DNA of 32,816 nucleotides from NCBI GenBank assembly GCA_021739625.1, contig JAIPBJ010000032.1, positions 1-32,816 on the forward strand. The letters are read 5' to 3'. The DNA comes from Flavobacteriales bacterium (GTDB lineage Bacteria > Bacteroidota > Bacteroidia > UBA10329). The position numbers and the translations under genes were made by a program. The number at the start of each line of letters is the position of its first letter. Positions within the stretch are counted from its first letter, which is position 1. Positions 13,833 to 17,961 of this stretch are shown piece by piece. The notes under the pieces are model-generated. The model was not told where the DNA came from. It saw only the letters and a program-made list of their open reading frames with translations, and searched no databases.

Positions 13833-13910
13833 ATGGCGTGCTGGATGCCCGACTTGAACAGGGAAATGGAATAAGTGTTCCAAATCCACCAAAAAATATC
13901 ATGACCTATG

Positions 13911-13943
13911 TTGCCCAGTCAACTTTTTCTACATTTACGTTTC
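13911..13943 (+). promoter_or_regulatory. Promoter candidate for the T9SS cargo gene
   Basis: TTG (13911-13913) and TACGTTTC (13936-13943, 7 of 8 to TAnnTTTG) are separated by 22 nt and lie 21 nt before the ATG at 13965. Confidence 0.45.
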
Positions 13944-13964
13944 CTATCACCAAATCTCGTGAAA

Positions 13965-15695
13965 ATGAGAAAGAGACACCTTACAGCCGTTCTTGTCCTT
14001 GGCCTCTGTGCCAATGTCCATGCGCAACTGTACGTGACCAATGGCAATACGCTGACCATTCAGACCGGTGCAGTAGTCCATTCTGACGGGGATGTGATGA
14101 ACAACGGTTCCGTAGCTGGCGGGGGCTTCCTCAACATGTTCAACACCGCCCAAGTGTATAGCGGAACAGGTGCCATCAGCAACCTTCGCGTGAGCGGTGG
14201 CGCTTCTGTCACCCCGGCAAACAGTGTGACCTTGGGCAACGCGCTGGATGTGACCTCTGGGAGCGATCTCACAGTACCGACCGGGCAGTACATTCTGGTG
14301 AACGGCCCACTGACCAATGCTGGCACTTTCACTGTGGAGAACAGCGGCAGTCTGGTGCAGACCATTGGTAGCACACTTACAAATTCCGGCACATTCCACG
14401 TTTTGAGACAGGGCTCAAGTGCTTCCAACGTTTACAATTACTGGAGTTCTCCTATCACCTCTGGTAGCGTGCCCGGAGGAAGTATCTACCGCTGGAATCC
14501 GAACACCAGCACTCAGGATTATGCTGATGACACCTTCGACCCGGGCTGGATCTCGTTTTCGGGCACCATGCAGGTGGGTTCGGGCTATGCCAGCCTGGGC
14601 GGTGACCTTGCGACTTTTACTGGAACGGCCAACAATGGCCCCATTCCACGGTCATTGATCTACTATCCATACAACATCACCAACACTGGGCCCGGCACCC
14701 CGTTCAACCTGATGGGCAATCCATATCCCTGTGCCATCAGTGCTGCACAGTTGGTATTGGACAACACCAATGTGAACGGTTCCATCTATTTCTGGGACGA
14801 TGACCTCACTGGCGGTTCGGGCTACTCTACCACCGACTACGCGGTATGGAACCATACAGGCGGACTGAGTGGCAGCGGTACCCCAAGCAACAGCGTGACA
14901 CCCAAAGGATTCATCGCATCAGGCCAAGGATTCATGGTCAGAGCCCTGAACGGGTCAGCTGCATTGGACTTCAACAATGGACAGCGAGTGACCGGGCCTA
15001 ACAGCCAGTTCTTCCGAATGGAGTCGGAGCCGCAACGACTGTACATCAGTCTGGAAAGCACGCAGCATTTCAACCAGATCCTTATCGGACTTGTAGAGGA
15101 TGCCACAGATGGAGAGGACCGACTTTATGATGCAACAAAGATCAGAGGAAGTCAGAGCATCGCCCTCTCTGCGGTCGATGGGGACATGGAGTATGCCATC
15201 ATGGCATTTCCTCCTCCAATGACAGAAAAGACCATCCCATTGAATGTTTTTCTGGCAGAATCGGGTACATACACGTTCCACTCCAACACCATCGAAGGCT
15301 TTGATGGCTATGAGATCTATCTGGAAGACAGGAGCACTTTCACCTACTACCCGATGTCTGAGGGGACTCAGGTCCCTTTCCAACTCAATGCCGGTGACAT
15401 TGCCGAGCGTTTTTACCTGCACATAGGTTCAGAGCTGGTCACCGGTGTGCGTGACGAAGATTCTCCTGCCATGCGCGCTTGGATCTATGACGGAATGCTG
15501 AATGTGAATCTGTTCAATTTCGGCAATCATAACGGTCAACTGGAAATGTTGGACATGGCAGGACGCAAAGTGTGGGCCTCTGGAGCGAATGTCAGCGACC
15601 GCTTCATGGCCGATGTAAGCGACCTGAGCCGTGGTGCGTATCTTGTGCGTATGACCTCGCAATCAGGCATTTTCACTGAGAAAGTAATCCGTTAA
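13965..15695 (+). CDS. T9SS type A sorting-domain surface protein
   Basis: A 576-residue secreted protein of unknown role. The ATG at 13965 begins a signal peptide (MRKRHLTAVLVLGLCANVHAQ, cleavage near residue 19-20); an in-frame ATG at 13908 would add 19 residues that spoil it. Residues about 22-150 are Gly/Ser/Thr/Asn-rich with repeated short turns (GNTLTIQTGAVV, NSGSLVQTIGS), typical of a beta-helix. The middle contains YNYWSSPI and NLMGNPYP, a combination seen in many T9SS cargo proteins of Bacteroidota. The last 80 residues carry the sorting domain (LEMLDMAGRKVWA, LSRGAYLVRM, TEKVIR). The 64-residue PID-CTERM-like gene follows 33 nt downstream on the same strand. It may be a structural or adhesive protein; nothing enzymatic is seen. 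Confidence 0.85.
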   Translation: MRKRHLTAVLVLGLCANVHAQLYVTNGNTLTIQTGAVVHSDGDVMNNGSVAGGGFLNMFNTAQVYSGTGAISNLRVSGGASVTPANSVTLGNALDVTSGSDLTVPTGQYILVNGPLTNAGTFTVENSGSLVQTIGSTLTNSGTFHVLRQGSSASNVYNYWSSPITSGSVPGGSIYRWNPNTSTQDYADDTFDPGWISFSGTMQVGSGYASLGGDLATFTGTANNGPIPRSLIYYPYNITNTGPGTPFNLMGNPYPCAISAAQLVLDNTNVNGSIYFWDDDLTGGSGYSTTDYAVWNHTGGLSGSGTPSNSVTPKGFIASGQGFMVRALNGSAALDFNNGQRVTGPNSQFFRMESEPQRLYISLESTQHFNQILIGLVEDATDGEDRLYDATKIRGSQSIALSAVDGDMEYAIMAFPPPMTEKTIPLNVFLAESGTYTFHSNTIEGFDGYEIYLEDRSTFTYYPMSEGTQVPFQLNAGDIAERFYLHIGSELVTGVRDEDSPAMRAWIYDGMLNVNLFNFGNHNGQLEMLDMAGRKVWASGANVSDRFMADVSDLSRGAYLVRMTSQSGIFTEKVIR

Positions 15696-15728: not shown

Positions 15729-15923
15729 ATGAAGCCTCTATCCGTCTTACTTGTTGTTTCGGCACTGCTACTGATGGCTATTTCTGTCATGGCGCAAGGT
15801 CCTGCACCTCCACCTGCTCCGAACGAAGTGCCGTTGGATGGATTTTCAGCTCTGCTGCTTGTTGCGGGTGCGGGCTATGGAGCTCACAAGATGCTGCATC
15901 GCAGAAAGGACAAGCGTCCCTGA
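15729..15923 (+). CDS. Small exported protein with PID-CTERM-like sorting signal
   Basis: A 64-residue protein made of three parts: a signal peptide (about 1-22, ends VMAQ), a short Pro/Ala linker (GPAPPPAPNE), and a C-terminal tripartite signal. The signal is PLDG (about 35-38), a hydrophobic helix (FSALLLVAGAGYGAHKML) and a basic tail (HRRKDKRP). This matches the PID-CTERM proteins of Bacteroidota, usually PIDGG followed by a Leu/Ala-rich helix with GAGYG or similar, here with Leu instead of Ile. By analogy with PEP-CTERM and LPXTG proteins, a membrane protease or sortase-like enzyme would process it, but no such enzyme is in this window. Almost no mature protein remains, so it may be a small membrane peptide. 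It lies 33 nt behind a T9SS cargo gene and 12 nt from the convergent choice-of-anchor B gene. Confidence 0.8.
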   Translation: MKPLSVLLVVSALLLMAISVMAQGPAPPPAPNEVPLDGFSALLLVAGAGYGAHKMLHRRKDKRP

Positions 15924-15935
15924 CCTCATTCTTCC

Positions 15936-17333
15936 TCAGTGCTTGATGAATCTGACCGAACCGAAGTATGCGTGGTCTTGGATTCTCATGAGGTAGAGTC
16001 CCGGATTCAGACTTTCTATTTGGGGAATGCTGCCGTTCGTTGTTATTGTTCCGGCCAGCCTCTCCTTGCCAAACATATCCATCACTGAGAATCCGGAACC
16101 TCCGAATGCTGATGACACCTCGGCCCTGTCTGTGACGGGGTTCGGGCGAATCAGAACCGGTTCACGTTCGGAAACCGCATCGGTTCCAGTAGTGCCTGAA
16201 ATCGCATCGGTCCCATCAAGCACCCATAGACCCGTCTGCATATCGCTTGCCAATATGTGCCCTGAGGGCAGGAAAGGATACACACCCCAACACCCGCGAT
16301 AATCATTATCCGCGTGCGGCTCGGTTGACGTATCGTAGAATCCGGCCAGCGTTGGGTGTGCAGGGTCGGTGCAATTGAAAACATACATCCCATCATAATA
16401 ATAGGATACGAAAAGGAAGTTGTCGCGATAAATGAGATTGTGGGGAATGCTGAAAGGGTTCACGCCCGATGTGACGGTATCGGTCACCTGAAGATTCTGC
16501 ATGTCGCTCACATCCAAAATCTTGATGGACTTGCCATGGGTCTCATCAGCCATGGCGTAGTATGGCTGGTTCTCCATCAGATATCCACTGTGATTGTAGC
16601 CCTGATGAGGATAGACTGGCAATGAACCTATCATGGTCGGATTTTCCATATCGGTGAAATCGACCACAAAGAGGCCGCGGGTCTCAGCATTGCAATAGGC
16701 GGTGTCGTTCCGCACATAGATATCGTGGAGGTAACCTATCGAGTTCCAGAAAGCCAGGTCGTACCGGCAGTTGACCAACAATGTCGGATCTGTCGGGTCT
16801 TCCAAGGAATAGACCGCTGCCCAATTTGAATTTCCCACCACATAGAGGTGGGCGGTGGCCTGATCGATGAAACAGTTGTGCGCCCTTGTGAACAGCACAT
16901 TGCTATCATAGACCAAAGGTGCTGAGTCGGGCAGAAAACTGAGGTCTGCGATCTGCAACGTGCTCGGGCCCTCGTCACAGACCATGTAGAGATAATGCCC
17001 GTAATTGTCGAAATGGCGATGAATGACCTGTGAACCTGTGGCCGCTCCTTCAATGAACACGGCCTCGTAAGAGTTGGTCGGGTCGGTAACGTCAATGATG
17101 TGTGTCCCATTGGTTGAGCCAATGACACCATACTCCCGACCATCGGCCGCATAGCCCCACACCTCGTTGTAGGTGTTGCTCCAAGTGCTGGAGGCAGGCA
17201 ATGAGGCATCCTGCCAATTGAACAATGCACGCACGTTGAGACTGTCTTGTGCCAACACAACAGAATTCACCAATGCAAAAGCAGCAATCAGCAGGAACAT
17301 TCTAACGGTCACTCTCAATTGTCCTATCATCAT
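15936..17333 (-). CDS. Choice-of-anchor B family protein (LVIVD-type propeller) with T9SS sorting domain
   Basis: A 465-residue secreted protein. The start ATG-ATG at 17333/17330 gives a signal peptide with a basic n-region (RVTVR) and cleavage after VVLAQ. The body has the choice-of-anchor B signatures WGYAADGREYGVIGS, THIIDVTDPT, YGHYLYMVCDEG, TRAHNCFID, YNHSGYL, SIPHNLIYRDNFLFVSYY and GCWGVYPFLPSGHILASD. These form repeated LVIVD-like blades of a beta propeller. The last 75 residues are a T9SS type A domain (IRPNPVTDRAE, LNPGLYLMRI). The family's function is unknown; a surface recognition or scaffold role is inferred. Its start overlaps the 3' end of the PaaY-like gene by 32 nt. An ATG at 17300, one nucleotide after that gene's stop codon, is an alternative but lacks basic residues before the hydrophobic core. 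Confidence 0.9.
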   Translation of the reverse strand: MMIGQLRVTVRMFLLIAAFALVNSVVLAQDSLNVRALFNWQDASLPASSTWSNTYNEVWGYAADGREYGVIGSTNGTHIIDVTDPTNSYEAVFIEGAATGSQVIHRHFDNYGHYLYMVCDEGPSTLQIADLSFLPDSAPLVYDSNVLFTRAHNCFIDQATAHLYVVGNSNWAAVYSLEDPTDPTLLVNCRYDLAFWNSIGYLHDIYVRNDTAYCNAETRGLFVVDFTDMENPTMIGSLPVYPHQGYNHSGYLMENQPYYAMADETHGKSIKILDVSDMQNLQVTDTVTSGVNPFSIPHNLIYRDNFLFVSYYYDGMYVFNCTDPAHPTLAGFYDTSTEPHADNDYRGCWGVYPFLPSGHILASDMQTGLWVLDGTDAISGTTGTDAVSEREPVLIRPNPVTDRAEVSSAFGGSGFSVMDMFGKERLAGTITTNGSIPQIESLNPGLYLMRIQDHAYFGSVRFIKH

Positions 17334-17961
17334 GGTGCTTTTTGTTTCCCTTATCCTTATGCCATGTCGCAATGATGGCCGCCTGTCTGCCCTCATAAGG
17401 GTCTGCTTCTGGAATGTCGGCATCAGTGACATAATCTATGGCCGGAAGCTCCCGCATGGTCCCGTGGCATTCCTTAGGGTGGCTCTGATAGAGCATGGTG
17501 CCTCTGGTCTTCCAGTCGGCCATCTCATCTGTGACATCTTTCACCACACGCGCAGGATTGCCGACAACAATCTTCCTGTCGGGCACCTTCATCCCGGCAG
17601 GGACAAAGCACAGCGCACCGACCACGGCTTCCTCTCCGATAACTGCATCGTCCATCAGCACCGCGTTCATGCCTATGAGACAATTGCGTTTGAGTATGGC
17701 CCCATGCACGATGGCCCCGTGACCTACGTGGGCAAACTCATGAAGTATGACGGTGGTGCCCGGAAACTGATGCACTGTGCTGTTCTCTTGCACATTGCAT
17801 CCGTCCTTGATGACGATCCGGCCCCAGTCCCCTCGGATGCAGGCGCCCGGGCCGATATACACATCGCGGCCGATCTGCACATTGCCTATGACGCTTGCCG
17901 TAGGATGCACATAGGCCGAGGGGTGTACGGTCGGCCTCATGCCGTTAAACTCATAGATCAT
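17302..17961 (-). CDS. paaY: PaaY-like gamma-carbonic anhydrase / hexapeptide-repeat protein
   Basis: A 219-residue left-handed beta-helix protein. The start IYEFNGMRPTVHPSAYVHPT, then IRGDWGRIVIKDG, NVQENSTVHQFPG and GMNAVLMDDAVIGE closely follow remembered E. coli PaaY. Zinc-ligand histidines are His64, His81 and His86, with the same 17- and 5-residue spacing as in PaaY. PaaY is a trimeric zinc protein of phenylacetate catabolism, described as a thioesterase or carbonic-anhydrase-like repair enzyme. No other paa gene is visible here, so pathway membership is uncertain and the general carbonic anhydrase-like name is safer. The last 40 residues are hydrophilic and probably disordered. The ATG at 17961 is preferred over one at 17979. 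It overlaps and probably translationally couples with the choice-of-anchor B gene. Confidence 0.88.
   Translation of the reverse strand: MIYEFNGMRPTVHPSAYVHPTASVIGNVQIGRDVYIGPGACIRGDWGRIVIKDGCNVQENSTVHQFPGTTVILHEFAHVGHGAIVHGAILKRNCLIGMNAVLMDDAVIGEEAVVGALCFVPAGMKVPDRKIVVGNPARVVKDVTDEMADWKTRGTMLYQSHPKECHGTMRELPAIDYVTDADIPEADPYEGRQAAIIATWHKDKGNKKHHDDRTIESDR

Follow-up and report, generated by a model that had tools for sequence, protein, structure and literature searches.

The window analyzed here, a stretch of 32,816 nucleotides, encodes on its forward strand a protein of 64 amino acids (open reading frame 15729 to 15923), MKPLSVLLVVSALLLMAISVMA|QGPAPPPAPNEV-PLDG-FSALLLVAGAGYGA-HKMLHRRKDKRP. 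Judged by sequence and hydropathy, residues 1 to 22 (15729 to 15794) form a Sec signal peptide, with cleavage predicted by the Bacteroidetes Q-rule between A22 and Q23. The proline-rich peptide QGPAPPPAPNEV (15795 to 15830), which is the segment expected to be left after both cleavages, is followed by a P-L-D-G sorting motif (15831 to 15842; consensus P[IL]DGG), the presumed exosortase site. Then come a short Gly/Ala-rich hydrophobic helix seen in the hydropathy profile (residues 39 to 52; 15843 to 15884) and the basic tail HKMLHRRKDKRP (15885 to 15920), which is presumably cytoplasmic. This is exactly the layout that the first-pass annotation had described. Directly upstream and on the same strand lies the gene of a 595-residue T9SS type A cargo (13908 to 15695; TIGR04183, 28.1 bits with a cut-off of 23; PF18962, 28.2 bits), whose type A C-terminal domain matches TIGR04183 with residues 534 to 594 (15507 to 15689). 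The stop of the cargo gene is separated from the ATG of the mini-protein gene by only 33 nt, and a pattern scan, although weak evidence by nature, found no terminator-like site in this gap.

On the other side, the gene at 15936 to 17432 on the reverse strand encodes a protein of the choice-of-anchor B family (TIGR04312, 155.6 bits) that also has a T9SS type A tail. The mini-protein gene had been placed between two T9SS cargo genes, and indeed TIGR04183 (cut-off 23) detected a type A tail in both flanking proteins, with 28.1 and 25.6 bits. The downstream gene, however, is oriented toward the mini-protein gene and does not belong to the cargo/mini-protein unit. Thus, "between two cargo genes" shrinks to "directly behind one".

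The proposed PID-CTERM identity was confirmed by the NCBIfam model PID_CTERM (NF046080), which matched the protein with 32.7 bits, above the curated cut-off of 26, with residues 34 to 58 aligned to positions 1 to 24 of the 25 profile positions. The P[IL]DG motif, the hydrophobic helix, the basic tail at the extreme C terminus and the N-terminal signal peptide are all present, and no other credible family was found for the protein in NCBIfam or Pfam. It is not a PEP-CTERM protein, since the motif is PLDG rather than PEP and no PEP-CTERM model matched. The same anatomy occurred once in the window and in none of 60 shuffled windows. When the whole genome was searched for further proteins of this pattern, as had been suggested, exactly two genes exceeded the NF046080 cut-off; the second copy (G000:C148) is 58% identical to the copy in the window and begins 21 nt behind the gene of a large type A cargo.

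Matches to NF046080 above the cut-off were found in 42 of 247 Bacteroidota genomes from widely separated families, with one to seven per genome, and nearly all of them are mini-proteins of about 50 to 140 amino acids. These relatives conserve the frame as well as the PxDG-helix pattern. Among 122 relatives, the motif (A/V)P(I/L)DGG is followed by a helix rich in Gly and Ala and then by a K/R tail; with the proline taken as the anchor, I or L is found in 115, D in 108 and G in 114 sequences, another G occupies motif position +12 in 120, and 19 to 33 residues remain after P.DG. A glutamine stands at the end of the signal peptide in 111 of the 122, in line with the Bacteroidetes Q-rule (PMC5837995), and the median distance from this residue to the motif is 13 residues. 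The dN/dS ratio had a median of 0.16 and was below 1 in every one of 308 pairs with usable dS, which argues that the frame is selected as a protein. Together with the absence of the pattern from shuffled windows, this rules out a chance open reading frame in the window. A detached piece of the neighboring cargo is ruled out as well, since every copy carries a signal peptide of its own. It could still be argued that the mini-proteins are neutral hitchhikers, that is, relics of a body-bearing protein or chance small frames kept by duplication of gene pairs, and cargo/PID pairs have in fact been duplicated together within genomes. However, purifying selection in every usable pair largely refutes this idea, and conservation over many families and a separate signal peptide for each copy also speak against it, so that we regard it as hardly credible.

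Two further features were observed among the relatives. Mini-proteins of a PISG type (L171:4977-5171 and L170:4869-5072) score below the PID_CTERM cut-off, and thus the family is undercounted by the curated model; the gene in L171 has a 4-nt overlap with the stop of the gene for a T9SS cargo of 1957 residues. In eight loci (L043, L047, L049, L053, L089, L096, L102 and L104), the frame runs upstream of the signal peptide and includes a conserved Cys4 segment, CxxC..GKPRPVGNYIVEL..CQSC, which would, if translated, yield an N-terminal cytoplasmic zinc-ribbon.

One NF046080 match was not a mini-protein; it sits in an open frame of 995 residues that encodes an MSEP-CTERM-family protein of 950 residues. 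This protein matched TIGR04286 with 743 bits over positions 2 to 890 of 920, and its last segment matched NF046080 with 28.9 bits. A search of its taxonomic family yielded six intact MSEP-CTERM-family homologues (L264 to L269, family f10), all of which match TIGR04286 only up to about positions 889 to 895 of 920 and end with VPIDG, VPLDG, VPLDD or VPLDH, followed by a helix and an Arg tail. A PID-like tail in place of the MSEP tail, itself an exosortase tag, on the same type of body is a classic hallmark of such suffixes and identifies the PID tag as a swappable sorting suffix, although MSEP-CTERM proteins are the only kind of body found with such a tail, all other carriers being bodiless mini-proteins, so that its use on unrelated bodies is documented minimally. 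In the genome of the 950-residue protein (G166), a search run without a positive control did not find XrtN; that the PID tail replaces the MSEP tail because XrtN is missing is therefore only suggestive.

The first-pass annotation had merely suggested a link with T9SS surface proteins, and this link is strongly supported across the phylum. TIGR04183 matched 82/95 distinct same-strand upstream neighbors of PID genes, and a home-made HMM for T9SS cargo tails likewise picked up 82 of the 95. Of 123 full PID genes, 89 have a cargo tail that ends no more than 400 nt upstream, compared with 9 of 113 non-PID genes from the same regions (P = 9e-26), and the gap between cargo and PID gene is typically 10 to 100 nt. 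Since the home-made HMM misses some true cargos, including that of the second copy in the same genome, these counts are lower bounds; likewise, some of the 24/123 PID genes for which the HMMs detected neither a cargo nor an exosortase as neighbor are HMM misses. All 42 PID-positive genomes have a T9SS, as do 192 of the 247 genomes overall. Within the genus, 12 of 15 intact close homologues of the cargo module in the window are followed by a PID-type mini-gene at a distance of about -4 to 33 nt, and two of these 12 mini-proteins (G248 and G252) have degenerate PLDA or PLDI motifs that the curated model missed. More distant members of this cargo module (L257, L248, L254, L260 and L261, from G000:C20 and congeners) have no PID gene behind them; right after the cargo stop is instead a conserved mini-protein of about 50 residues, M(N)TKKKTYKKPEVKKVTIDNEISMVMMSFGPGGDPE...LNPLRWWK, which resembles the leader of a RiPP precursor.

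Such tight pairing with a cargo gene is reminiscent of type B cargos, whose SprF shuttle is encoded immediately downstream (PMC12618676), and would also be expected if the PID protein were an unprocessed small bitopic microprotein of the inner membrane, or a hairpin with an uncleaved signal, that helps its cognate cargo to leave the membrane or enter the T9SS, with co-occurrence of exosortases being secondary. The Cys4 zinc-ribbon-like upstream frame of some relatives would suit an N-in hairpin. We consider this alternative unlikely, because type A cargos use the general shuttle PorV (PMC12618676) and because the exchange of the MSEP tail for a PID tail in a large protein points to an exosortase signal, as do the joint presence and absence of tag and enzyme and their adjacency in 16 genomes, described below.

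A co-occurring exosortase-like enzyme, whose presence the first-pass annotation had proposed to check, is indeed encoded in the genome, outside the window (G000:C107:29566-30063; ORF L147:6836-7384), where it adjoins neither of the two PID genes. It matched the XrtX model NF046081 with 83.6 bits, below the cut-off of 170, and is therefore called XrtX-like rather than XrtX. With 24.5 bits, it also fell just short of the PF09721 cut-off of 25.7, and it passed the broad exosortase/archaeosortase signature TIGR04178 with 47 bits (cut-off 23). In an alignment of 22 enzymes that includes this one, Cys93 and Arg134 are invariant and His153 is nearly so; archaeosortase A is known to require conserved Cys and Arg residues (PMC9263693).

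PF09721 exosortases were found in 38 of the 42 PID-positive genomes, compared with 23 of 150 T9SS-positive genomes without PID, and the enzyme of the former is mostly single and short (165 to 217 amino acids). A 39th PID-positive genome (G045) has an XrtX above the cut-off directly behind the PID gene, and no exosortase was found at the threshold used in the PID-positive genomes G103, G122 and G226. In family f24, the enzyme was present in 23 of 23 PID-positive versus 1 of 6 PID-negative genomes. Among 50 relatives, the XrtX model matched 28/28 PID-positive versus 6/22 PID-negative genomes, or 30/30 versus 4/20 if the two members of the genus with degenerate motifs are counted as PID positive. 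In 16 of the 28, PID and exosortase matches share a strand, and the latter starts about 90 nt or less from the former. Cargo, PID and exosortase genes stand in a row in at least seven loci (L123, L208, L211, L212, L217, L220 and L070), often with a small membrane protein next. The enzymes next to PID genes are XrtX above the cut-off in L040, L008 and L124, XrtY-like in L123 and XrtX-like in L070; enzymes unlinked to PID genes include XrtF in Flavobacteriaceae and, in L149 and L151, XrtX above the cut-off. In one genome, an XrtK was present in addition.

The membrane protein gene often begins at or within the exosortase stop (L149:3469-3993, L154:3490-3954 and L151:3012-3863), and no NCBIfam model matched these three proteins; behind the exosortases of L157 and L155, the membrane protein matched NF046082 (weakly) and TIGR04127, respectively. 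It is not the case that every Bacteroidota exosortase pairs with PID, since other tails occur near the enzymes of four PID-negative genomes (loci L178, L179, L180 and L184). The proteins in question end with VPTLG[EQ]W or PVPTVTEWG followed by a helix and a basic tail, and these pairs are IPTL-CTERM/XrtH-like. More generally, several genomes with an exosortase and no PID match have either tails of the VPTLGEWG type or, as with PISG in L171, PID-like tails that do not reach the cut-off.

The co-occurrence extends to Flavobacteriaceae. A model built from five PID-like mini-proteins was used to search 61 genomes of one genus of this family, presumably Flavobacterium in view of XrtF scores of up to 236 bits. 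A PID-like mini-protein was found in 47 of the 61, namely, in 44/51 genomes with XrtF versus 3/10 without (P = 6.5e-4), where Fisher values treat genomes as independent and, since the genomes are related, overstate their independence. The agreement among separate lineages (the genus of the window, f24, Flavobacteriaceae and many families with a single genome) is the stronger argument. By synteny, the mini-gene lies beside ribE in the loci examined and usually does not adjoin a cargo gene. In Flavobacterium johnsoniae, deletion of xrtF or its partner gene greatly reduced biofilm formation and abolished zorbs, as did deletions of porU, porV and sprA, which xrtF mutants resemble in surface colonization (PMC10936215); the exosortase substrates were left to future work in this mBio study of 2024 (PMC10936215). 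The mini-proteins encoded beside ribE are candidate substrates for the Flavobacterium XrtF and are predicted to act with the T9SS pathway.

The gene, its tag, the suffix-like swapping of the tag, the linkage to T9SS cargos and the co-occurrence and adjacency of exosortases are all direct results of the computational analysis, and from these we infer cleavage, transfer to an acceptor and a role with the cargo as follows. The precursor would be exported by Sec and cut by signal peptidase I at A22|Q23, after which Q23 would be converted to pyroglutamate. The 42-residue product would be held in the inner membrane by its C-terminal helix, and PLDG would face the periplasm. The XrtX-like exosortase (G000:C107) may then cut at or near PLDG, so that the helix is discarded, and move the proline-rich peptide of about 12 to 15 residues onto a lipid or glycan carrier. 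At the cell surface, the modified peptide may serve the cargo encoded upstream as a small partner in anchoring or assembly. The mini-protein is very probably an exosortase substrate, and a joint role with the adjacent cargo is on balance probable; the proposal as a whole, in which a substrate without a body is processed by an exosortase system and coexpressed with a type A surface protein of the T9SS, seems fairly probable to us.

A peptide of about 12 to 15 residues is too small for a structural domain, and most PID copies go with a single cargo gene. Both observations would also fit a proline-rich peptide that is released by the exosortase as a signal or regulator and reports cargo production or a working T9SS, instead of being a surface component. 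However, no recurring receptor or regulator gene was seen beside PID genes in the neighborhoods of PID loci, and the xrtF phenotype concerns adhesion and biofilm (PMC10936215), which makes a signaling role rather improbable.

Since the relatives mostly lie behind a T9SS cargo gene in genomes with an exosortase, there appears to be a connection in Bacteroidota between two surface-sorting pathways that had been regarded as separate. One might go further and view T9SS and exosortase sorting as two halves of a single surface assembly route, in which each dedicated type A cargo has a mini-protein of its own, whose exosortase-processed peptide, on a lipid or glycan, serves as the specific anchor or assembly point of that cargo at the cell surface. 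This we put forward only tentatively, as possible rather than likely; if true, it would explain why the xrtF mutant of F. johnsoniae resembles T9SS mutants. Moreover, the substrates are so small that mass spectrometry could read them in full, and the product chemistry of an exosortase could thus be worked out with a peptide of about 14 residues.

The tag and the enzyme are already represented in NCBIfam. Enzymes of the XrtX (NF046081) and XrtY (NF046083) families adjoin PID genes in many relatives, NF046082 denotes an XrtX-associated membrane protein, and the consecutive accessions NF046080 to NF046083 suggest that tag and enzymes had been paired by the curators. The NCBIfam entries, as matched here, are silent on T9SS and on bodiless mini-proteins, and a literature search found no mention of PID-CTERM or XrtX. 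Neither the pairing with cargos nor the bodiless design was found described, and the link to T9SS, which looks new, would be the first to join the two systems by which Bacteroidota sort proteins through their C termini.

Like PEP-CTERM and its exosortase EpsH, the PID system combines a motif, a helix and a basic tail with an N-terminal signal peptide, and tag and exosortase are jointly present (PMC3237569). Unlike PEP-CTERM, it uses P[IL]DG, nearly all of its targets are bodiless, its exosortases are of a short Bacteroidota type and its genes are tied to T9SS cargos. The placement of PID and XrtX genes resembles that in the GlyGly-CTERM/rhombosortase system, in which a single target adjoins the enzyme and several targets stand apart (PMC3237569), but there the enzyme belongs to the rhomboid superfamily and the targets are of normal size. 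As with T9SS type B cargos and their SprF-like shuttles, a dedicated partner gene lies directly downstream of the cargo gene (PMC12618676); in contrast to SprF pairs, the partner is an exosortase-tagged mini-protein, the cargos are of type A and no beta-barrel is encoded. A further related system is that of XrtF of F. johnsoniae (TIGR04128), which is a separate subfamily: Flavobacteriaceae with XrtF mostly have a PID-like mini-protein, and the xrtF mutant behaves like a T9SS mutant (PMC10936215).
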